The translations under genes were made by a program, and so were the position numbers. The notes beneath the pieces are model-generated. The model saw only the letters and a program-made list of their open reading frames with translations. It did not search any database and was not told where the DNA came from. 64,000 bases of DNA, taken from NCBI GenBank assembly GCA_944320775.1, contig CALUIV010000007.1:1-64000 (forward strand), read 5' to 3'. How positions within the stretch are numbered: position 1 is the first letter of the stretch; every line of letters starts with the position of its first letter. This DNA comes from an uncultured Paraprevotella sp. (GTDB lineage Bacteria > Bacteroidota > Bacteroidia > Bacteroidales > Bacteroidaceae). This document shows, piece by piece, positions 48,492 to 61,340 of this stretch.

Positions 48492-51400
48492 ATGAGAAAA
48501 TATCTGTTCTTAATCGGTCTGCTGGTTGTGCTGACAGTCCGTGCCGAATATTTCAAGCAAATCAATATTCAGCACGGACTGTCCCAGCCGTCTGTAATGG
48601 CGATCGCTCAAGATGGTCTGGGACGAATGTGGTTCGGAACACAAGAAGGAGTGAATGTGTATGATGGGAACCGACTGACGGCTTATAAAGGAGATTTTCC
48701 TGATCGGGATGGAAAAAACAAATGGGTCGGTAATTTTGTGGAGTTTATCCGGACCGATGCCCAGGGAAATGTTTATTTGCTTTGCGATGGAAATCTGTTC
48801 TTTTACGACATATATACGGCTGATATGGAGCAGATTACTGAAGGAAACAAAACTACAGCCCTGGAGTCGGATGGGACGCAAATGTGGTTTGCAAAAGGCC
48901 GTGACATTTATTCCTTAAAGACTTCTACGGATACGGCACAGTTGCGGATGACGGTACCGCGAGGGCGTATCAACGTTATTCACTGTGGACATTCTTGCAT
49001 TTATGTAGGGACTACCGACGGGGTCTTTATGACCGATAAGGTTCATCCGGGAACTTGGGAACATCTTTTAGGAGGAAAGGATATTTACCGGTTGTATGAA
49101 AGTACGGCAACGGGTTTGTGGATTGCCACAAGAATGGAAGGGTTATACCGTTATGTGAATTCCAGACTGAAACGTGTTCCGGTAACGGGTAATGATCAAG
49201 GGACTGTCGACCGCCAGATCCGGGAATTTGTGGAAGATGATGCGGGGAATATGTGGTTCGGTACATTTTCCGGTTTACAGAAATATAATCCTCATCAGGA
49301 TAAATATCAGGTTGTGAATATACCGGTTTATGCCGGCGGACTGAATCATTCATCAATCTATTCTTTGTATAAGGACCGTTCGGGTACAATCTGGGTAGGA
49401 AGTTATTATGGCGGAGTGAATTATTTCAATCCGGATCGTAGTACATCGTTTCATTATGATTATCAGACTTCTGGACATAAAGATCTGTTTTATTCCTATA
49501 TTGGGGATATGGTACAGGATCGGGATGGCCGTCTTTGGATCAGTACGGATGGAGGAGGATTGTCGGCCGTAGACCGGGATTGGGAGTTGGTGGATTATTA
49601 TACGGCAGATGATCGGAATACTATTCCACATAATAATATCAAAAGTTTGTGTTATGATTCCGGCCGGAATCTTTTGTATATAGGAACGCATTTAGGCGGA
49701 CTGTGCCGTCTGGATTTGACGAACAAGGTTTTCTACCGTTATGATGACCGCAACCGGCGAAACCCCGGTAATATTATTTATAGAATCCGGAAATGGCAGG
49801 ATCGGATTTTTGTTTCGGCGCGAAATGGTATGTTCGTTCTGAAACCGGATTCTGACCGCTTTTCGCCTTTGCCGACAGGCGGACGTATCTTTGTGATTTA
49901 TGATATAGATGATGCCGGAACTTTTTATGGGATTTCGGGGAATCGGCTGTTTATTGGTCCATGTTCTGAATTACAGCATCCGGAAACGGTTGATCTTAAG
50001 AAATATGGTTTGCGGTCTGAAGTCACGGCATTACTTCCGGTTTCGGATGGTGTCTATTTGTGTACAAAAGGCGACGGGCTGCTTTTTTATCATAGGAAAC
50101 AGAAGACGATGACCAGCTATCATACCGGAAATAGTGGCATTTCCAGTAATTATTGTTATCGTATAGCCTTTGTACATCCGAATCAGGCCGTTATTACGAG
50201 CGATCAGGGGATTATGCTTTTTGATTCGGAAAAGAAAACTTTTTCCCGACTGGAACAGAAAAACAGCAGTTTTCCGATTATTGACGGATGCGGGTTATAT
50301 GTTTCGCCAGAAGGAGAAATCTATGTGGGTGACACTAAAGGAGTAACTCTGATTAAGGAAACAGATTTTTCAGATGACCGTAAAACGAATTCATCCTTAT
50401 ATTTTTCATCACTTTGGGTGAATAATGTCAGTATCCGGCCTTATGACGGTAGTGATATTTTGACTACTTCGCTGCCTTTTACCCAAAGGATTTCGTTGGA
50501 ATACGGACAAAATAATCTGCAATTGGAATTTGCCAGTTCTGATTATGCCTGTCTGCCGGTGTTGCAGGAATATGAATATAAACTGGATGGTATAGATCGT
50601 GACTGGATCCGTACTTCAGTACCCATAGTCCGATATACTTATCTTAAACCCGGAAAATACATGATGCGTGTCCGGTATGCCGGTGAGGAGAAGGCTTCGG
50701 CCTTGTTAGAGATTGTCATTCGTCGTCCCTGGTATTTTTCCTGGTGGGCCTGGAGTATTTATGTGGTGATGGCCGGCCTGATTCTTTTTTTCACGATACG
50801 GATCTGGAACGTGCGGAGAAAACTGAAAATGACATTGGAAAAAGAGCGTTTCGAGAAGCATCATATAGAAGAACTGAACAGGAGCAAATTGACTTTTTTT
50901 ACCAATGTGAGCCATGAACTGCGTACGCCGTTAACTTTAATAGCCAGCCATATCGACCTTTTGTTGCAGCAAACGAAAATGGAAGCGACGGTTTATAACG
51001 TCGTGCTGAAAGTGAAGCAGCATGTGCAGTATATGAACAATCTGGTGAATGAATTGCTGGATTTTAGGAAGTTCTCTCAAAATGAAGGCACTCTGGTCTT
51101 AAGACAGAAGGATTTATGTGCTTTTATAAAAGAAATATTTCTGACGTTTCAGGATTATGCCTTGCGGCGGAATATGGATTACCGTTTTGATGCAGAACCA
51201 GAGTCTGTGCCCTGTTGGTTTGATGAGAGACAATTGGAAAAGGTTTTCTTCAATTTGCTTTCTAATGCTTTTAAGTCGACGGACAATGGCGGACAAATAA
51301 CCGTTTCGGTCAGACTAAACGGTGAGTTTGCCGAAGTGGCAGTGACGGATAACGGATGCGGTATTGCGGAGTCAGACTTGCCACATATATTCGACCGCTT

Positions 51401-52439
51401 TTATCAGTCGCGTGGGAGTGAGATGAAGGGAATGATGCAGGGAACCGGAATCGGACTGGCTTTGACAAAGAGTATTGTGGAGAAACATCATGGTCGGATC
51501 TGTGTAGAGAGCCGGGTCGGAATCGGTAGTACATTCCGTGTCCTTCTTTCGTTGGAACGTTCGGAATATGAACAGGACGAACATATCACGATTGACGAGA
51601 CCGAAGAAAAACAACCGGTATCGGATTTTCTGCCCGAGACCGAGGAGGATCAGGAAGGACAGCAGGGCGGACATAAATACAAATTGCTGGTCGTAGAAGA
51701 TAATCTGGAATTGCAGCAGATTTTGTTACAGCTTTTCCGACCATATTATCAGGTGGCTGTGGCCGACAATGGCCGGATGGGATTGGAACAGGTCTATGCT
51801 TTCAAGCCAGACATTATCGTTTCCGATATTATGATGCCGGTGATGACCGGTACGGAGTTGTGTATGAAAATCAAGAACAACATGGAAACCTGTCATCTGC
51901 CCGTGATTCTGTTGACAGCATTGAACAGTGTGGAGCAGAATATTGAGGGGTTGAACAGAGGGGCAGATGATTATGTCTGCAAGCCGTTTGATCATCAGCT
52001 TTTGCTGGCACGGGTTAACAATCTGCTGAGAAACCGGACCCTGATTCATCAGCAACTGTCCAATCAGCCTGTAGAGTCATTGGATTTGACCTCCGTCAAT
52101 CCATTGGATCAGAAATTTCTGCATCGGGTTTCCGAAATTATCCAAAAACATATGGGCGACTCGGCTTTTGATATTGCTGCGTTTTGCCAGGAAATCGGAA
52201 TGGGACGGTCGGTTCTATATTCAAAATTCAAGGCCTTGACCGGAATGACTCCTAGTAATTTTATATTAAATGCACGTCTGCAACATGCAGCCATGTTGTT
52301 GCAAAAGCATCCGGAACTTTCGGTGACAGAAGTCAGCGAACGGTGTGGATTCAATGCACCGGTTTATTTCAGTAAATGTTTTAAGGCGCAGTTCCAAATG
52401 ACTCCGGTTGATTATCGGAAAGCTAAAATTAAGGTTTAA
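48492..52439 (+). CDS. Hybrid two-component system sensor/regulator (HTCS)
   Basis: One-protein glycan sensor that spans the inner membrane. The 1315-residue product has a signal sequence (1-18), a two-bladed-type periplasmic region of Reg_prop repeats (about 20-640, with many WFGT/WIGS-like ends), a Y_Y_Y domain (about 680-745), one transmembrane segment (about 753-770), HisKA with H808 in NVSHELRTP, HATPase (N921/N925, DNGCG, GTGIGLA), a receiver with D1112 (SDIMMP) and K1164, and an AraC helix-turn-helix (about 1215-1312). All catalytic residues are intact. It stands directly upstream of the GH88-KduI genes and very probably controls them by sensing a uronate-containing oligosaccharide or its breakdown product. 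Confidence 0.95.
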   Translation: MRKYLFLIGLLVVLTVRAEYFKQINIQHGLSQPSVMAIAQDGLGRMWFGTQEGVNVYDGNRLTAYKGDFPDRDGKNKWVGNFVEFIRTDAQGNVYLLCDGNLFFYDIYTADMEQITEGNKTTALESDGTQMWFAKGRDIYSLKTSTDTAQLRMTVPRGRINVIHCGHSCIYVGTTDGVFMTDKVHPGTWEHLLGGKDIYRLYESTATGLWIATRMEGLYRYVNSRLKRVPVTGNDQGTVDRQIREFVEDDAGNMWFGTFSGLQKYNPHQDKYQVVNIPVYAGGLNHSSIYSLYKDRSGTIWVGSYYGGVNYFNPDRSTSFHYDYQTSGHKDLFYSYIGDMVQDRDGRLWISTDGGGLSAVDRDWELVDYYTADDRNTIPHNNIKSLCYDSGRNLLYIGTHLGGLCRLDLTNKVFYRYDDRNRRNPGNIIYRIRKWQDRIFVSARNGMFVLKPDSDRFSPLPTGGRIFVIYDIDDAGTFYGISGNRLFIGPCSELQHPETVDLKKYGLRSEVTALLPVSDGVYLCTKGDGLLFYHRKQKTMTSYHTGNSGISSNYCYRIAFVHPNQAVITSDQGIMLFDSEKKTFSRLEQKNSSFPIIDGCGLYVSPEGEIYVGDTKGVTLIKETDFSDDRKTNSSLYFSSLWVNNVSIRPYDGSDILTTSLPFTQRISLEYGQNNLQLEFASSDYACLPVLQEYEYKLDGIDRDWIRTSVPIVRYTYLKPGKYMMRVRYAGEEKASALLEIVIRRPWYFSWWAWSIYVVMAGLILFFTIRIWNVRRKLKMTLEKERFEKHHIEELNRSKLTFFTNVSHELRTPLTLIASHIDLLLQQTKMEATVYNVVLKVKQHVQYMNNLVNELLDFRKFSQNEGTLVLRQKDLCAFIKEIFLTFQDYALRRNMDYRFDAEPESVPCWFDERQLEKVFFNLLSNAFKSTDNGGQITVSVRLNGEFAEVAVTDNGCGIAESDLPHIFDRFYQSRGSEMKGMMQGTGIGLALTKSIVEKHHGRICVESRVGIGSTFRVLLSLERSEYEQDEHITIDETEEKQPVSDFLPETEEDQEGQQGGHKYKLLVVEDNLELQQILLQLFRPYYQVAVADNGRMGLEQVYAFKPDIIVSDIMMPVMTGTELCMKIKNNMETCHLPVILLTALNSVEQNIEGLNRGADDYVCKPFDHQLLLARVNNLLRNRTLIHQQLSNQPVESLDLTSVNPLDQKFLHRVSEIIQKHMGDSAFDIAAFCQEIGMGRSVLYSKFKALTGMTPSNFILNARLQHAAMLLQKHPELSVTEVSERCGFNAPVYFSKCFKAQFQMTPVDYRKAKIKV

Positions 52440-52515: not shown

Positions 52516-52571
52516 CGTTGTTAAAAAAGTAAAACATGAAAAACAAATATACGATTAATATCAGAACGATT

Positions 52572-53846
52572 ATGAAGAATTTACTGACTACAATTTGTAT
52601 GGCATGCGTCTGTTCCATGTCGTTTGCTCAGAACGCAGAGAAAGCTTTTGTGAAGGAGAATATGGATTTTGCTGCCCGGCAATATGAACTGATGTTGCAG
52701 GTGCCGGCTCAGGGAAAAGATGGAAAAGGCGTGATGCCCCACAGCCTTCGGAAGGATGGAACAACGGCTAAAGCCAGTATTTATTTATGGACTTCCGGAT
52801 TTTTCCCGGGAAGTCTATGGTATCTTTCAGAATATCTTGGCGACAAGGCTTTGCAGGATTCAGCTTTGGTTTATACAAAAAAAATGGAACCGGTGAAAAA
52901 GTATACCGGGAATCATGATATCGGTTTTATGATGTATTGCAGTTATGGCAATGCCAACCGTTTTCAACCTAAGCCGGAATATCAGGATATTCTGATAGAA
53001 TCTGCCCGATCTCTGTGTACACGTTTTTATCCGGAAGTGGGAGTGATTAAGTCATGGAACAGTTTCCGGTCCTGGCATGGTGACAAAGTGTATGATTTTC
53101 CGGTGATCATAGACAATATGATGAATCTGGAGTTGTTGTTCTTTGCTTCGCGGGTAACAGGTGACGATTCGTTCCGCAAGGTGGCTATATCACATGCCGA
53201 AACGACCATGAAGAATCAGGTGCGCGACGATTACAGCTGTTATCATATCGTTTATTATGACCAGAAGACCGGGAAGCCGATCAAGGGAGAAACTTCGCAG
53301 GGATATGCGGACAATTCGGCATGGTCGCGCGGACAGGCCTGGGGAATTTATGGTTTTACAATGTGTTATCGGGAAACCGGTAACAAGGACTTCCTGAAAA
53401 CGGCACAACGTATGGCCGATTTTTATCTGGACCATCCGAATCTGCCTTCCGATAAAGTTGCCTGGTGGGATTTTAATGCATTTCAACCTGGTTATGTTCC
53501 GGGAGTCCGTTCAAATGCCAATAACCTGACGACAAACTATCGTGATGCTTCGGCTGCTGCATGTACGGCTTCGGCTTTGTTGGAACTCAGTACTTATGTA
53601 AAAGGAAAGAAAAGCAGTAAATATTATGAGGCTGCAAAGACGATTTTGCATAGTCTGGGTAGTAAAAATTATCGGGCCGAACTGGGGAAGAACGGTAACT
53701 TTATCCTGATGCACAGTGTTGGAGCTGTTCCTCATAACAGCGAGATAGATGTGCCTTTGACTTATGCCGACTATTATTTTCTAGAAGCTTTGTATCGTTA
53801 CGACCGGCTTTTGGACGGTAAACCTTTGTTTGATTCACTACACTAA
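52572..53846 (+). CDS. GH88 unsaturated glucuronyl hydrolase, exported
   Basis: Removes the delta-4,5-unsaturated uronic acid left by polysaccharide lyases, giving a sugar that opens to 5-keto-4-deoxyuronate. The frame opens at 52536, but the methionine at 52572 gives a clean signal peptide (MKNLLTTICMACVCSMSFAQ) and 424 residues. Catalytic aspartates are visible as D116 in TGNHDIGFMMY and D181 in FPVIIDNMMNLELL. The (alpha/alpha)6 helical repeats fill the rest (SRGQAWGIYGF). It is the first gene of an eight-gene co-directional run. Which polymer is attacked cannot be told; no lyase lies in the window. Confidence 0.94.
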   Translation: MKNLLTTICMACVCSMSFAQNAEKAFVKENMDFAARQYELMLQVPAQGKDGKGVMPHSLRKDGTTAKASIYLWTSGFFPGSLWYLSEYLGDKALQDSALVYTKKMEPVKKYTGNHDIGFMMYCSYGNANRFQPKPEYQDILIESARSLCTRFYPEVGVIKSWNSFRSWHGDKVYDFPVIIDNMMNLELLFFASRVTGDDSFRKVAISHAETTMKNQVRDDYSCYHIVYYDQKTGKPIKGETSQGYADNSAWSRGQAWGIYGFTMCYRETGNKDFLKTAQRMADFYLDHPNLPSDKVAWWDFNAFQPGYVPGVRSNANNLTTNYRDASAAACTASALLELSTYVKGKKSSKYYEAAKTILHSLGSKNYRAELGKNGNFILMHSVGAVPHNSEIDVPLTYADYYFLEALYRYDRLLDGKPLFDSLH

Positions 53847-53882: not shown

Positions 53883-55142
53883 ATGAACAAGCGTATTTTT
53901 ATTCTTTTGGGGTTGATGGCTTGGATAATGATGGCTACACAACCGGTAAATGCACGGGAAAAAAGAGGAAAAAACCGCATGGAACAGACTACCGGAGCTC
54001 AGGATCGGGAACAATGGGTACATTGGCTTTGGAAAATTGCTTATCCGGTGGTTCACAATCTGGCAGAAGGAACACTTCATCAGAACATGCCGGTTGAGAC
54101 TCCTACGGGGTCGACCGATGGTTATCGCGATATGACCCATCTGGAAGCTGTGGGAAGAACATTGGCGGGTGTCGCACCCTGGCTGGAGCTTCCCGATGAT
54201 GATACCGCAGAGGGCAAATTGCGGAAACAGATGCGGGATGAGGCTCTGAAGGGTTTGAAAAATGCTGTAGATCCCGATTCACCCGACCGGTTGAACTTCA
54301 CCAAACATGCACAGCCGATTGTGGATGCAGCTTATCTGGCCCATGCTTTTTTGCGCGCTCCAAAGGCATTGTGGGAACCGCTCGATGAGGTAACGAAGGC
54401 CCGTTATATCGAAGCGTTCAAAGTGTTGCGCAATAGAACCGGAGCTTATAACAACTGGTTGTTGTTCACTGGGCTGACAGAAGCATTTCTGATGCAGCAA
54501 GGAGCTCAGTATGATCCGTTCCGTATTCGTATGGCCAAGAATAAGATACAGGAATGGTATGTCGGCGATGGCTGGTACAGCGACGGGAGCAAGTTCAGTA
54601 TGGACTATTATAATTCATACGTGATCAATCCGATGATGGTGGCTTTGCTGGAAACCATTCTGCCGAAAAAACAGGCCAGTCAGGCTGAGTACAACCAGGC
54701 ATTGCGCCGCATGGTGCGCCATGCGGAGTATTGTGAGCGGATTATCTCTCCCGAAGGCACTTATCCGGCTTTTGGCCGTTCGGTAACCTATCGTTCGGCT
54801 GCCTTTCAGTCTTTGGCCGATGTGGCCTTGCGCGGAAAACTTCCTGACCACATCAAGCCGGCACAGGTTCGTTGTGCCCTGACGGCTGTACATCGGAATC
54901 TGTACGATGGCGACCAGAACTTCGATAAAGACGGTTGGTTGGTTTTAGGCTTTAACGGACATCAGCCGGAAGTGGCCGACAGTTATACTTCTACGGGGAG
55001 CTTGTATATGGCCACATTAAGCTTCTTACCGTTGGGACTTCCTGCCGATCATCCGTTCTGGACAGATGAACCGGCGGACTGGACGACCAAAAAGGCTTGG
55101 GCCGGTGAACATTTCCATAAGGATTATAAGGTGGAATATTGA
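53883..55142 (+). CDS. DUF2264 / GH154-type glycosidase, exported
   Basis: DUF2264 proteins are classed in GH154, whose characterised member (a Bacteroides thetaiotaomicron enzyme, recalled) is an exo-beta-glucuronidase. The 419-residue protein has a signal peptide (about 1-24, MAWIMMATQPVNA) and the family features: LEAVGRTLAGVAPWLELP, NNWLLFTGLTEAFLM, WYVGDGWYSDG and the PAFGRSVTYRSAAFQSLAD block. It follows GH88 by 36 bases. With GH88 it would remove both unsaturated and saturated terminal uronates. Confidence 0.85.
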   Translation: MNKRIFILLGLMAWIMMATQPVNAREKRGKNRMEQTTGAQDREQWVHWLWKIAYPVVHNLAEGTLHQNMPVETPTGSTDGYRDMTHLEAVGRTLAGVAPWLELPDDDTAEGKLRKQMRDEALKGLKNAVDPDSPDRLNFTKHAQPIVDAAYLAHAFLRAPKALWEPLDEVTKARYIEAFKVLRNRTGAYNNWLLFTGLTEAFLMQQGAQYDPFRIRMAKNKIQEWYVGDGWYSDGSKFSMDYYNSYVINPMMVALLETILPKKQASQAEYNQALRRMVRHAEYCERIISPEGTYPAFGRSVTYRSAAFQSLADVALRGKLPDHIKPAQVRCALTAVHRNLYDGDQNFDKDGWLVLGFNGHQPEVADSYTSTGSLYMATLSFLPLGLPADHPFWTDEPADWTTKKAWAGEHFHKDYKVEY

Positions 55143-57760: not shown

Positions 57761-59023
57761 ATGAAAAATATAAGATTAAATCCGTTGTTGCTTGTCGGAG
57801 GATGGCTTGTTCTGTATGGATGTGCGGGGAGCAAATCCAGTATGAGTGTTCGGGTAAAAAATCCGGCATCTGTTTCCCGGGAGCAGGAACTGGTAGAGAT
57901 TCCTTTAGCATCTTTCAAAGGGATGCATGCGGAGCGTGGAGATGAAGGCTGGATTGTTCTGGACAGGAACGGCCGGCAAATTCCATCCCAAGTAACGCAC
58001 GACAGTCTGCTGCTGTTTCCTGTAACTCTTTCTCCTTTGGCCTCAGATACATATCGCATTGAACGGGGTAAACCGGATAAATACGAAATGGTGGCTTGTG
58101 GTAATGTGTATCCGAATCGTCTGGATGATGTAGCATGGGAAAACGACAAAGCTGGATACCGGGCCTATGGACCGGCTCTTCAACGGACAGGAGAAAAAGC
58201 CTATGGATATGATGTATTCACCAAATCTGTCGCTTATCCGGTTCTGGAAAGAAGATATCAGATGGAAACAAGCTCAGAGATTCTGAGCCGAATCAGCGAA
58301 TTAAGGAAACAAGGGAAAAAAAATGAGGCTGACAGTTTGAGAAATGCTACGTCCTATCATGTCGATCATGGTAATGGAATGGATTGTTATAATGTTGGTC
58401 CAACTCTAGGAGGAGGTACTGCCGCATTGTTGCATGGGACAGACATCATTTATCCCTATTGCTATCAGCACGTGGAGATCTTGGATAATGGTCCGTTGCG
58501 GTTTTGTATGCGGTTGCGATATCATCCTTTTAGTTTGGCTGCTGATTCGGGAGTGGTAGAGACAAGAAAAATCACTCTGGATGCGGGAAGTCATTTGAAT
58601 AAGACAGAGGTGATTTACAACCGATTGTCCAAGCCTACCGGTATTGTAGCAGGAATTGTCTTGCATCCTCAGAATCCGGATGGTTATTTCTATAACACTG
58701 AGAAAGGGATTCTGGTTTATGCAGATTCAACGAATAATAAACGTAATAACAATGGAGTGATATATGTCGGTTTGGTGTTTGGACAATATCCGGATAGTAC
58801 GGGTGTTCGGTGGTTTGACGATGCGGAAAAGAAGAAAAGACCGGGGGCTTTAGGACATGTATTAGGTTATGGTACTTATTATCCTGGAACAGCCTATACC
58901 TATTATTGGGGAAGTGGTTGGAGCAAATCCAATATGCGCGATATGAATGCCTGGAAGAATTATCTGCAAGAATATGCAGAGAAAATAAAACACCCTGTTT
59001 TAGTAGAAGTTGATAGAAAATAA
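57761..59023 (+). CDS. DUF4861 domain lipoprotein
   Basis: The 420-residue protein starts MKNIRLNPLLLVGGW and has a lipobox (LVLYGC, Cys about 21), so it is membrane-anchored on the periplasmic side or surface. It matches the DUF4861 family in overall pattern (N-terminal sandwich with VEIPLASFKG, YPNRLDDVAWENDKAGYRAYGPAL, then DCYNVGPTLGGG and a C-terminal WSKSNMRDMNAW). DUF4861 proteins recur beside polysaccharide-lyase and uronate genes, but I know of no proven activity for this one. It lies between kduD and the EIIC gene with gaps of 15-16 bases, so it is part of the same unit and probably handles a uronate-containing substrate. Confidence 0.82.
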   Translation: MKNIRLNPLLLVGGWLVLYGCAGSKSSMSVRVKNPASVSREQELVEIPLASFKGMHAERGDEGWIVLDRNGRQIPSQVTHDSLLLFPVTLSPLASDTYRIERGKPDKYEMVACGNVYPNRLDDVAWENDKAGYRAYGPALQRTGEKAYGYDVFTKSVAYPVLERRYQMETSSEILSRISELRKQGKKNEADSLRNATSYHVDHGNGMDCYNVGPTLGGGTAALLHGTDIIYPYCYQHVEILDNGPLRFCMRLRYHPFSLAADSGVVETRKITLDAGSHLNKTEVIYNRLSKPTGIVAGIVLHPQNPDGYFYNTEKGILVYADSTNNKRNNNGVIYVGLVFGQYPDSTGVRWFDDAEKKKRPGALGHVLGYGTYYPGTAYTYYWGSGWSKSNMRDMNAWKNYLQEYAEKIKHPVLVEVDRK

Positions 59024-59039
59024 TCGAGAAACGGTTAAT

Positions 59040-60425
59040 ATGGAACAATTTTTTAGTTATATTATCGGGTTGGGAGCGGCAGTGATGATGCCAATATTGT
59101 TCACAGTTTTGGGCCTGTTTATGGGAATCCGTTTTGGAAAAGCAATGAAAAGTGGACTTTTGGTTGGTGTCGGATTTGTCGGTCTTTCTGTAATCACGGG
59201 ATTGTTGACCAGTACATTAACTGTGCCTTTGAAAAACATTGCAGAGATTTATGGTTTGCGTTTGGGCATATTCGATATGGGATGGCCGGCTGCAGCTTCT
59301 GTAGCTTATAATACTTCAATAGGGGCGTTTGTCATTCCGGTTTGCTTATTGGTGAATATTGTAATGTTGGCAACAAAGACAACCCGAACCATCAATATTG
59401 ATTTATGGAATTACTGGCATTTCGCTTTTATTGGCGCTGTAGTCTATTATGCTACAGGAAATCTTGGCTGGGGATTTTTCAGTGCTGTAGTTTGTTGTGC
59501 TTTGACATTAATTATGGCAGACATGACAAGCAAACCTCTTCAAAAATATTATGAAGGTCTGGACGGAATATCGATTCCGCAGCCTTTCTGTCAGGGGTTT
59601 GTACCCTTTGCTGTCATCATCGATAAGATTTTGGACCGCATACCCGGATTTAAGCACCTGAATGTGGATGCAGAGGGATTAAAGAAAAAATTCGGAATTT
59701 TAGGTGAGCCTTTATTTTTAGGGGTTTTGGTCGGTTGCTTGATAGGCATTTTAGCTTGTAAACGTGTGGACGAGATTCCGGCCCATATACCGGATATATT
59801 GGGATTAGGTATTAAAATGGGAGCTGTTATGGAGTTGATTCCGCGAATCACATCATTGTTTATCGAGGGGTTGCGTCCGATATCCGATGCAACGAAAGAC
59901 TTGATTTCCAAAAGATTTAAAGATAAAGCAGGTTTGAATATCGGAATGAGTCCGGCATTGGTAATTGGACATCCGACAACTTTGGTTGTGTCACTGTTGT
60001 TGATTCCCGTTCTTTTATTTCTTTCTGTTATTCTACCGGGGAATGAATTTTTGCCTTTAGCTTCATTAGCAGGGATTTTTTATCTGTTTCCAGTGGTATT
60101 GCCGATAACTCGAGGGAATGTGGTAAAGACTTTTATTGTTGGGTTGTTTGCATTGATTGTCGGGTTGTATTTTGTAACAGATTTGGCTCCATATTTTACA
60201 AAAGCAGCAGCTGATGTATATGGACGCACGGGAGATGTTGCTGTACAGATACCGGAGGGATTCCAGGGAGGTGCCCTGGATTTCGCATCAAGTATTTTTT
60301 CATGGATCATTTTCCGTGTCGTGTATGATTTGAAGATGGTAGGGGCTGTAGTTCTGGTCCTTCTGGTCTTGTTTATGGCCTGGCGCAACCGGCAAAAGAT
60401 TAAGAAAGAAAGCATCAATAATTAA
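59040..60425 (+). CDS. Galactitol-type PTS EIIC-like permease without EIIA/EIIB
   Basis: The 461-residue protein is an integral inner-membrane protein with about ten to twelve hydrophobic segments and clear similarity along its length to GatC: LFMGIRFGKAMKSGLLVGVGFVG, DMGWPAAASVAY, KKFGILGEPLFLGVLVG and LVIGHPTTLVV. No EIIA, EIIB, HPr or EI gene lies nearby, and Bacteroides generally lack a working PTS. A KDG kinase is encoded in the same unit, which would be needed if sugar enters unphosphorylated. The likely role is facilitated uptake of the diketo-deoxy acid or a similar uronate product. The start at 59040 avoids overlap with DUF4861. Confidence 0.9.
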   Translation: MEQFFSYIIGLGAAVMMPILFTVLGLFMGIRFGKAMKSGLLVGVGFVGLSVITGLLTSTLTVPLKNIAEIYGLRLGIFDMGWPAAASVAYNTSIGAFVIPVCLLVNIVMLATKTTRTINIDLWNYWHFAFIGAVVYYATGNLGWGFFSAVVCCALTLIMADMTSKPLQKYYEGLDGISIPQPFCQGFVPFAVIIDKILDRIPGFKHLNVDAEGLKKKFGILGEPLFLGVLVGCLIGILACKRVDEIPAHIPDILGLGIKMGAVMELIPRITSLFIEGLRPISDATKDLISKRFKDKAGLNIGMSPALVIGHPTTLVVSLLLIPVLLFLSVILPGNEFLPLASLAGIFYLFPVVLPITRGNVVKTFIVGLFALIVGLYFVTDLAPYFTKAAADVYGRTGDVAVQIPEGFQGGALDFASSIFSWIIFRVVYDLKMVGAVVLVLLVLFMAWRNRQKIKKESINN

Positions 60426-60437
60426 ATAACAGGTTTT

Positions 60438-61340
60438 ATGAAATTAAGTAGTTTGATTTTAGCAATGATGATAGGGTCTGCAAGTTTGGTGCAGGCACAG
60501 GTGGTAACAGTCGATGTCCGTACGGCTTGTCATCCTCAGGATGTGAAGCACTACGACACGGAACGTCTGAGGAGTAATTTTGCCGTGGAGCATTTGTTTG
60601 AGGCTGACGGCATCCACATGACGTATGCTATGTACGACCGTTTTATTGTCGGTGGGGCTTGTCCCGTCAGTAAAACATTGAAGCTGGAGACTATCGACCA
60701 GCTTAAGGCGCCTAATTTCCTTGCACGTCGTGAAATTGGAATCATCAATGTAGGAGGTCCCGGAAAGGTACGTGTCGGTGATCAGACCTACCGGTTGGGG
60801 TATAAAGAGGCACTATACGTTGGTGCCGGCAGTCATGAAGTTTATTTTTCTTCAGATGATCAGGAAAATCCGGCCCGTTTTTATTTTAATTCAGCTCCGG
60901 CGCACTGCAGTTATCCGACCAAATTAGTGACGTTGAAAGATGCCAATAAGATCAAAGCTGGTTCTGCAGCGGAATCGAACGATCGGGTAATCAATCAGTT
61001 GATTATTAATAAGAACGTAAAGACCTGTCAGTTGCAGATGGGGATGACCGAACTGAAATCCGGCAGTGTCTGGAATACGATGCCGGCCCATGTACACGCA
61101 CGACGGATGGAAGCTTATTTCTATTTTGAGGTGCCGGAGAAACAGCGGATATGTCATTTTATGGGAGAACCACAGGAGACCCGCCATATATGGCTGGCCA
61201 ATGAACAGGCTGTGATATCTCCAGAATGGTCTATTCATGCTGCGGCAGGTACGAGCAATTATACGTTTATATGGGGTATGGCCGGTGAAAATCTCGATTA
61301 TGGAGATCAGGATCCGGTTCCGGTTGAGGATCTGAAATAA
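60438..61340 (+). CDS. kduI: KduI isomerase with an N-terminal signal peptide
   Basis: KduI converts 5-keto-4-deoxyuronate (DKI) to 2,5-diketo-3-deoxygluconate (DKII). The 300-residue protein is about 22 residues longer than E. coli KduI at the N-terminus; that part is a typical Sec signal ([20 protein letters not shown]), and the E. coli-like part begins at VDVR (residue 25, codon GTC). Zinc ligands are intact: H218 and H220 in [17 protein letters not shown]225, and H267 in [17 protein letters not shown]. The next methionine is at 61, inside the fold, so a cytosolic start cannot be chosen. The enzyme is therefore predicted to be periplasmic, next to the exported GH88. Confidence 0.93.

Follow-up and report, generated by a model that had tools for sequence, protein, structure and literature searches.

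The stretch of DNA analyzed here (the window; 64,000 nucleotides from an uncultured Paraprevotella sp.) carries, between positions 48492 and 61340, an HTCS gene followed by a same-strand run of genes for a GH88-like hydrolase, a DUF2264 protein, a PfkB kinase, a KDPG aldolase, an SDR, a DUF4861 protein, an EIIC-GAT permease, and KduI. The individual features are as follows.

48492 to 52439, plus strand: hybrid two-component system (HTCS), with Reg_prop, Y_Y_Y, HisKA, HATPase_c, Response_reg, and HTH_18
52572 to 53846, plus strand: GH88-like hydrolase, read from an internal ATG start, with predicted signal peptide ...CSMSFA^QNAEK; PF07470, 29.7 bits
53883 to 55142, plus strand: DUF2264 protein; PF10022, 408 bits
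55169 to 56227, plus strand: PfkB-family sugar kinase, putative KDG kinase; PF00294
56239 to 56916, plus strand: KDPG/KHG aldolase; PF01081 and NF005499
56954 to 57745, plus strand: SDR reductase, putative KduD/DhuD; NF005488, 473 bits
57761 to 59023, plus strand: DUF4861/BT3233 family protein, with a lipoprotein-like N-terminus; PF16153 and NF058564
59040 to 60425, plus strand: EIIC-GAT type inner-membrane permease, ATG start assigned by inspection; PF03611, 270 bits
60438 to 61340, plus strand: kduI open reading frame, 300 aa; NF002091, 432 bits; ligand residues H218, H220, E225, and H267
60438 to 60497, plus strand: predicted Sec signal peptide of KduI (codons 1 to 20), cleavage predicted before Gln21, from the sequence and a rule-based scan with controls
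60501 to 60503, plus strand: GTG codon 22 of kduI, read from the sequence as a second potential start codon, which would yield a cytosolic form

From its position, the HTCS likely regulates the kduI operon. Under a fixed rule for Sec signal peptides, the GH88-like, DUF2264, DUF4861, and KduI proteins were positive, and the kinase, aldolase, SDR, and EIIC were negative. An earlier reading made from the sequence only had claimed that the GH88 of this operon is also exported; this agrees with the signal rule, which is positive from the ATG at 52572 and negative from a longer start at 52536. The PF07470 match of this hydrolase is barely above the cut-off (29.7 versus 26.6 bits). For the PfkB kinase, the best NCBIfam match was a KDPG aldolase/sugar kinase fusion model, under its cut-off. 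The SDR fell short of TIGR01832 (kduD; 225 bits, cut-off 339) and exceeded NF005488 (gluconate 5-dehydrogenase; 473 bits, cut-off 369), and for this reason its KduD/DhuD role is given only as putative. The lipobox and start of the DUF4861 protein were chosen by inspection. The uronate operon includes this protein (57761-59023) and the DUF2264 protein (53883-55142), both apparently exported; DUF4861 also occurs near 52 of the 171 signal-less KduIs surveyed below.

The kduI frame opens with ATG, has no internal stops, and matches the KduI equivalog model NF002091 (NCBIfam) over residues 26-300, scoring 432 bits (cut-off 250). The residues H218, H220, E225, and H267, which we take to be the metal ligands of KduI, are all in place, as the sequence-only reading had stated. 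That reading had also put each ligand exactly 22 residues beyond its E. coli counterpart; alignment to E. coli chain 1x8m gave an offset of 20 in chain numbers, which would become 22 if the chain, as is presumed, has two additional residues at its N-terminus. The first 20 residues consist of MK, a hydrophobic core, and VQA^Q, providing the n-, h-, and c-regions and the Gln after the cleavage site that the Sec/SPI Q-rule test looks for; a Gln in this position is the rule in Bacteroidetes, according to PMC5837995. The proposal of a full KduI with a Sec signal peptide was accordingly borne out, with an equivalog-level match, a textbook peptide, and the same peptide type in other members of the family. 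Val25, which faces the E. coli start, is indeed encoded by GTC (60510-60512), but the conclusion once drawn from it, that a cytosolic start is unavailable, did not hold, since codon 22 is GTG. A second KduI was absent from the draft genome of the window (2.82 Mb, 61 contigs, 91% complete). Sec export of the window KduI is strongly predicted, and a periplasmic enzyme is the interpretation that fits its sequence best.

To place this protein among its relatives, 301 genomes were sampled from the family Bacteroidaceae, of which 167 had a KduI above the cut-off; 238 KduI frames in 240 loci left 229 distinct sequences once nine duplicates were dropped. By the fixed rule, 58 of the 229 carry a signal peptide, with Q at +1 in 52 of them, a fraction that is not a prevalence, some of the loci having been chosen for upstream frames of at least about 15 codons (extra codons judged by eye among the matches listed) and another set mostly for low scores. 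Among cytosolic controls, the rule was passed by 0 of 21 KdgK, 0 of 20 KDPG aldolase, and 5 of 159 SDR proteins, and by 0 of 58 EIIC as membrane proteins; 71 of 1160 draws of shuffled signal peptides were also positive, and a positive call is therefore no proof by itself. A laxer version was discarded: it called 91 of 159 SDRs and the KduI L171 positive, whereas the stricter version leaves 5 of 159 SDRs and drops L171. Across the 58 signal-bearing KduIs, H218, E225, and H267 are invariant and H220 is present in 57, and the hydrophobic core and a mostly retained Q at +1 persist while the signal-peptide sequences themselves differ. Cysteine content does not differ between signal-bearing and cytosolic KduIs (3.10 versus 3.09) and thus gives no sign of adaptation to an oxidizing compartment.

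The best solved match to the signal-bearing KduI of locus L203 is PDB 9kd0 (585 bits), in which chain residue 2 faces the predicted mature Gln; a chain starting at the mature residue suggests that the depositors were probably aware of the signal peptide and removed it on purpose. The code 9kd0 was absent among the KduI papers listed. An insertion in this structure is absent from the window KduI.

None of 50 loci taken from phylum-wide matches (L082-L111 and L143-L162) contained a signal-positive KduI, and the phylum-sample positives, namely the window genome (G000), G230, and G340 (loci L119, L196, and L202), belong to the window family. All positives come from window-family genomes or from Bacteroides propionicifaciens (L018), with the exception of L009, whose record names the order only. 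Exported KduIs are strongly predicted, from sequence, to be common in Bacteroidaceae and not a one-genome curiosity. The earlier proposal of a periplasmic KduI stands as the best reading, with the correction that such proteins are common in this family.

A tree of the KduI core was built from 110 rows retained after thinning (45 of the 58 signal-bearing and 65 of the 171 other KduIs). The signal label changes twice on this tree, compared with a mean of 35 changes under shuffling, and none of 500 shuffles was as low. The exported clade joins a signal-less sister, L002, with an SH-aLRT of 92 on this quick tree made without bootstrap. L002, from a Bacteroidales metagenome-assembled genome, has neither a signal nor an EIIC in 16 kb and is possibly a picture of the ancestral state. 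The only signal-less row inside the exported clade is L116 (G398, C1:234697-235521), a second KduI copy whose core equals that of L163 but whose start region differs, and the 3.8 kb of sequence available around it contain no EIIC; it is apparently a decayed duplicate and was counted among the 171 signal-less proteins despite its core being equal to that of the intact L163. The window KduI groups with the insertion-free members, its nearest relative being L112 (74%), and shares 63% identity with the signal-less KduIs L221 and L062. In answer to how widely the N-terminal extension occurs, the signal-bearing KduIs thus appear to form essentially one Bacteroidaceae clade; the exported form possibly arose once, and the branching order inside the clade is not firm.

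A clue absent from the sequence-only reading is the gene just upstream of kduI, which encodes an EIIC-type permease without a PTS. The EIIC stop codon lies 12 bp from the kduI start, and the translation of 59010-60422 reaches the PF03611 gathering score over residues 17-401 (270 bits). Its score against TIGR00827, the galactitol PTS permease model, is 383 bits against a cut-off of 542, and none of 121 Bacteroidaceae genomes contained a protein above that cut-off. A Pfam domain scan found no EIIA or EIIB gene in the window operon, and HPr is absent from the window genome; the sole EI-type match in this genome lies within a 908-aa frame, which by its size would be PPDK. The permease belongs to the same family as the galactitol PTS EIIC (GatC; PDB 9u82; PF03611) over almost its full length (E 3.6e-77), yet differs from the galactitol system in falling below TIGR00827, in having no EIIA or EIIB in its operon, and in the lack of HPr in the related genomes described below. 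GatC of E. coli K-12 MG1655 (NC_000913.3 2172921-2174278) is a pseudogene in the RefSeq annotation.

The pairing of the two genes is close in both directions. Of the 58 signal-bearing KduI genes, 57 are immediately preceded by a co-oriented EIIC-GAT gene, versus none of the 171 others (Fisher p 1.5e-53, a guide only, the rows being related). For 54 of these 57 pairs the intergenic distance ranges from -4 to 112 bp; the remaining three are L224 (178 bp), L232 (234 bp), and L228 (810 bp). The sole exception is the signal-bearing KduI of L189, with no EIIC within 14.8 kb. Conversely, a KduI sits right behind the EIIC in 30 of 30 loci (the best 30 places among 54 EIIC-positive genomes), and 29 of these KduIs pass the signal rule; the thirtieth, the unscored L244, represents the same gene as the signal-positive L195. 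EIIC was found in 54 of the 121 Bacteroidaceae genomes with at least 90% completeness, and a phylum-wide sample of 392 genomes gave three strong matches, all from the window family, plus two marginal ones. In the seven genomes that hold both kinds of KduI (G397, G420, G423, G445, G509, G551, and G679), the EIIC accompanies the signal-bearing copy only. EIIC and KduI divergences are correlated over 55 pairs (Mantel r 0.64, 0 of 1000 permutations), a figure that includes shared species history. In L193 (G428), an in-frame stop interrupts the EIIC gene before the exported KduI.

A single KduI match was found in 42 of the 54 EIIC-positive genomes, a list compiled by hand. The sole KduI passes the signal rule in all 42; in L308 the site is two residues before Gln. 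HPr was absent from all 42 genomes. PTS_IIB appeared in one (G533), barely at the Pfam cut-off: the match covers 31 positions in a 336-aa frame and scores 23 bits, or 23.6 when its neighbours are included. This weak match is presumably unrelated. With HPr missing from the window genome and from all 42 of these genomes, a working PTS behind the EIIC was rejected. An SDR reductase is present in 41 of the 42 (70-100% identity; two of the 41 partial). Among 30 SDR loci, 24 N-termini were available, with the Rossmann motif right after the first residues; in two of the 24 this motif makes the signal rule positive. With the only KduI exported and the SDR devoid of a signal, isomerization would take place outside and reduction inside, provided that the pathway is used. 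This arrangement would call for some carrier for DKII, and the EIIC is the obvious candidate.

In the textbook uronate pathway, KduI converts DKI to DKII, followed by reduction, KDG kinase, and KDPG aldolase. In the scheme that we consider probable on balance, a two-gene Bacteroidaceae module would divide this route between compartments. Periplasmic hydrolases would release DKI; KduI, Sec-exported and cut before Gln21, would need only a metal to turn DKI into DKII in the periplasm; the EIIC-GAT type permease would move DKII over the inner membrane without phosphorylation; and the SDR would reduce DKII in the cytosol, the only compartment that supplies the nicotinamide cofactor, leaving KDG kinase and KDPG aldolase to complete the pathway in the cytosol. 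The predicted export signal, ligand residues, gene pairing, HPr absence, and unsignalled later enzymes form the sequence-based part of this scheme; DKI as the substrate, DKII as the cargo, and PTS-independent transport are what we infer from them. We give an even chance to the broader proposition that an essentially one-time split moved the isomerase to the periplasm and captured a partnerless EIIC as a dedicated DKII importer, filling the inner-membrane uptake step for unsaturated uronates. According to PMC12089948, E. coli strains without ptsHI can take up glucose independently of the PTS through mutants of GatC, and galactitol uptake by GatC stays PTS-dependent, in the wild type included; these mutants would be a partial precedent for a PTS permease working without a PTS. 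Points against the module are the PTS requirement of wild-type GatC, the EIIC-less L189, the PTS_IIB match in G533, the start codons near the cleavage site, the unaltered cysteine content, and the MFS permeases described below.

An unlikely alternative, though the best surviving one, is that KduI is periplasmic but the EIIC carries DKI, a hexuronate, or a neutral sugar, with KduI removing or buffering the reactive aldehyde DKI. The DKII cargo is itself deduced, the GatC cargo is a polyol (PMC12089948), and relatives of the L203 MFS permease, which could provide another uptake route, are encoded no more than 7.5 kb away at 18 of the 58 signal-bearing loci (and at 26 of the 171 others). Against this stand the near one-to-one association of EIIC and exported KduI in both directions and the 42 genomes with no cytosolic KduI to handle imported DKI, a count made for homologues of KduI, to which the cytosolic isomerase DhuI is unrelated. 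In several pairs, for instance at L203 (8053-9504) and L220 (5306-6826), KduI is followed by an MFS permease (PF07690) that is hexuronate-transporter-like by inspection, at times with GH88-family and pectinesterase genes close by.

Less probable again is a dual or mainly cytosolic enzyme, translated also from GTG22, or from near-cleavage starts in its relatives, with the extension little used. A start at GTG22 would give a KduI of roughly canonical length, and an in-frame start codon falls between cleavage-site residue -3 and the core in 45 of the 58 signal-bearing genes (ATG in 34), so that a cytosolic product is possible; however, the other 13 genes lack such a start, the hydrophobic core and, for the most part, the Q at +1 have been maintained, and sequence inspection revealed no ribosome-binding site before GTG22.

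Slightly below this ranks the idea that the true substrates of the exported KduI are intact hexuronates, with galacturonate turned into tagaturonate, and not DKI. E. coli KduI is reported to facilitate galacturonate and glucuronate conversion (PMC3578941), and pectinesterase genes like that of L220 lie near 6 of 58 signal-bearing KduIs versus 4 of 171 others. The window operon, however, represents the DKII branch (SDR, kinase, and KDPG aldolase) together with a GH88-like hydrolase, and its KduI scores as an NF002091 equivalog. Genes of the GH88 family (PF07470) like that of L220 are near 8 of 58 signal-bearing versus 6 of 171 other KduIs, and some of the EIIC-KduI pairs are located beside pectin genes. 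A sequencing or start-site artefact, conceivable for a draft genome in 61 contigs and once named as a possible source of the extension, is hardly credible, chance and artefact alike being refuted by recurrence in 58 of 229 distinct KduIs: the architecture returns in dozens of genomes, two of them single-contig (G415 and G537), and the PDB 9kd0 chain was truncated precisely where cleavage is predicted.

The exported KduIs belong to the same family as the cytosolic KduI of E. coli and the KduIs encoded in the kduI-dhuD clusters (type E) that Bacteroidaceae carry (PMC12838403), and share the same metal-ligand residues. Unlike them, the cytosolic type has no signal; it has a same-strand SDR within 7.5 kb in 149 of 171 cases and an EIIC in 0 of 171. 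A 2025 survey of kduI/dhuD clusters gives Bacteroidaceae kduI-dhuD only, and the portions of its main text that were available contain no mention of a signal peptide, EIIC, or galactitol (PMC12838403). In the Bacteroides chondroitin locus, the periplasmic GH88 BT3348 releases 5-keto-4-deoxyuronate in the periplasm, a step shared with the pathway proposed for the window, and the glycosaminoglycan review that describes it has monomers imported, with BT4653 as a putative hexose transporter for monosaccharides from heparan sulfate; the review, in its accessible part, names no keto-uronate importer or periplasmic isomerase (PMC9067506). KduI or an isomerase is mentioned in the accessible text of PMC7953866, PMC8072126, and PMC11036162, with no exported form, and in that of PMC12269599 KduI is used only in an assay. 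No periplasmic or signal-bearing KduI and no EIIC-KduI pair in Bacteroides was found among the literature matches listed, which are mostly open-access and were available in part. What these results suggest as new is that an exported KduI and an orphan EIIC form a tight pair, possibly of single origin, which would imply a pathway divided between compartments.

The conserved EIIC-KduI pair provides a concrete candidate importer for the keto-uronates that Bacteroides release from pectin or glycosaminoglycans. If the proposed module is correct, a textbook pathway step would have been moved to another compartment, and the presence of galactitol-PTS-type permease genes in bacteria without HPr would be explained. 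Metabolic reconstructions in which all KduI proteins are placed in the cytosol may then mislead for many gut species.
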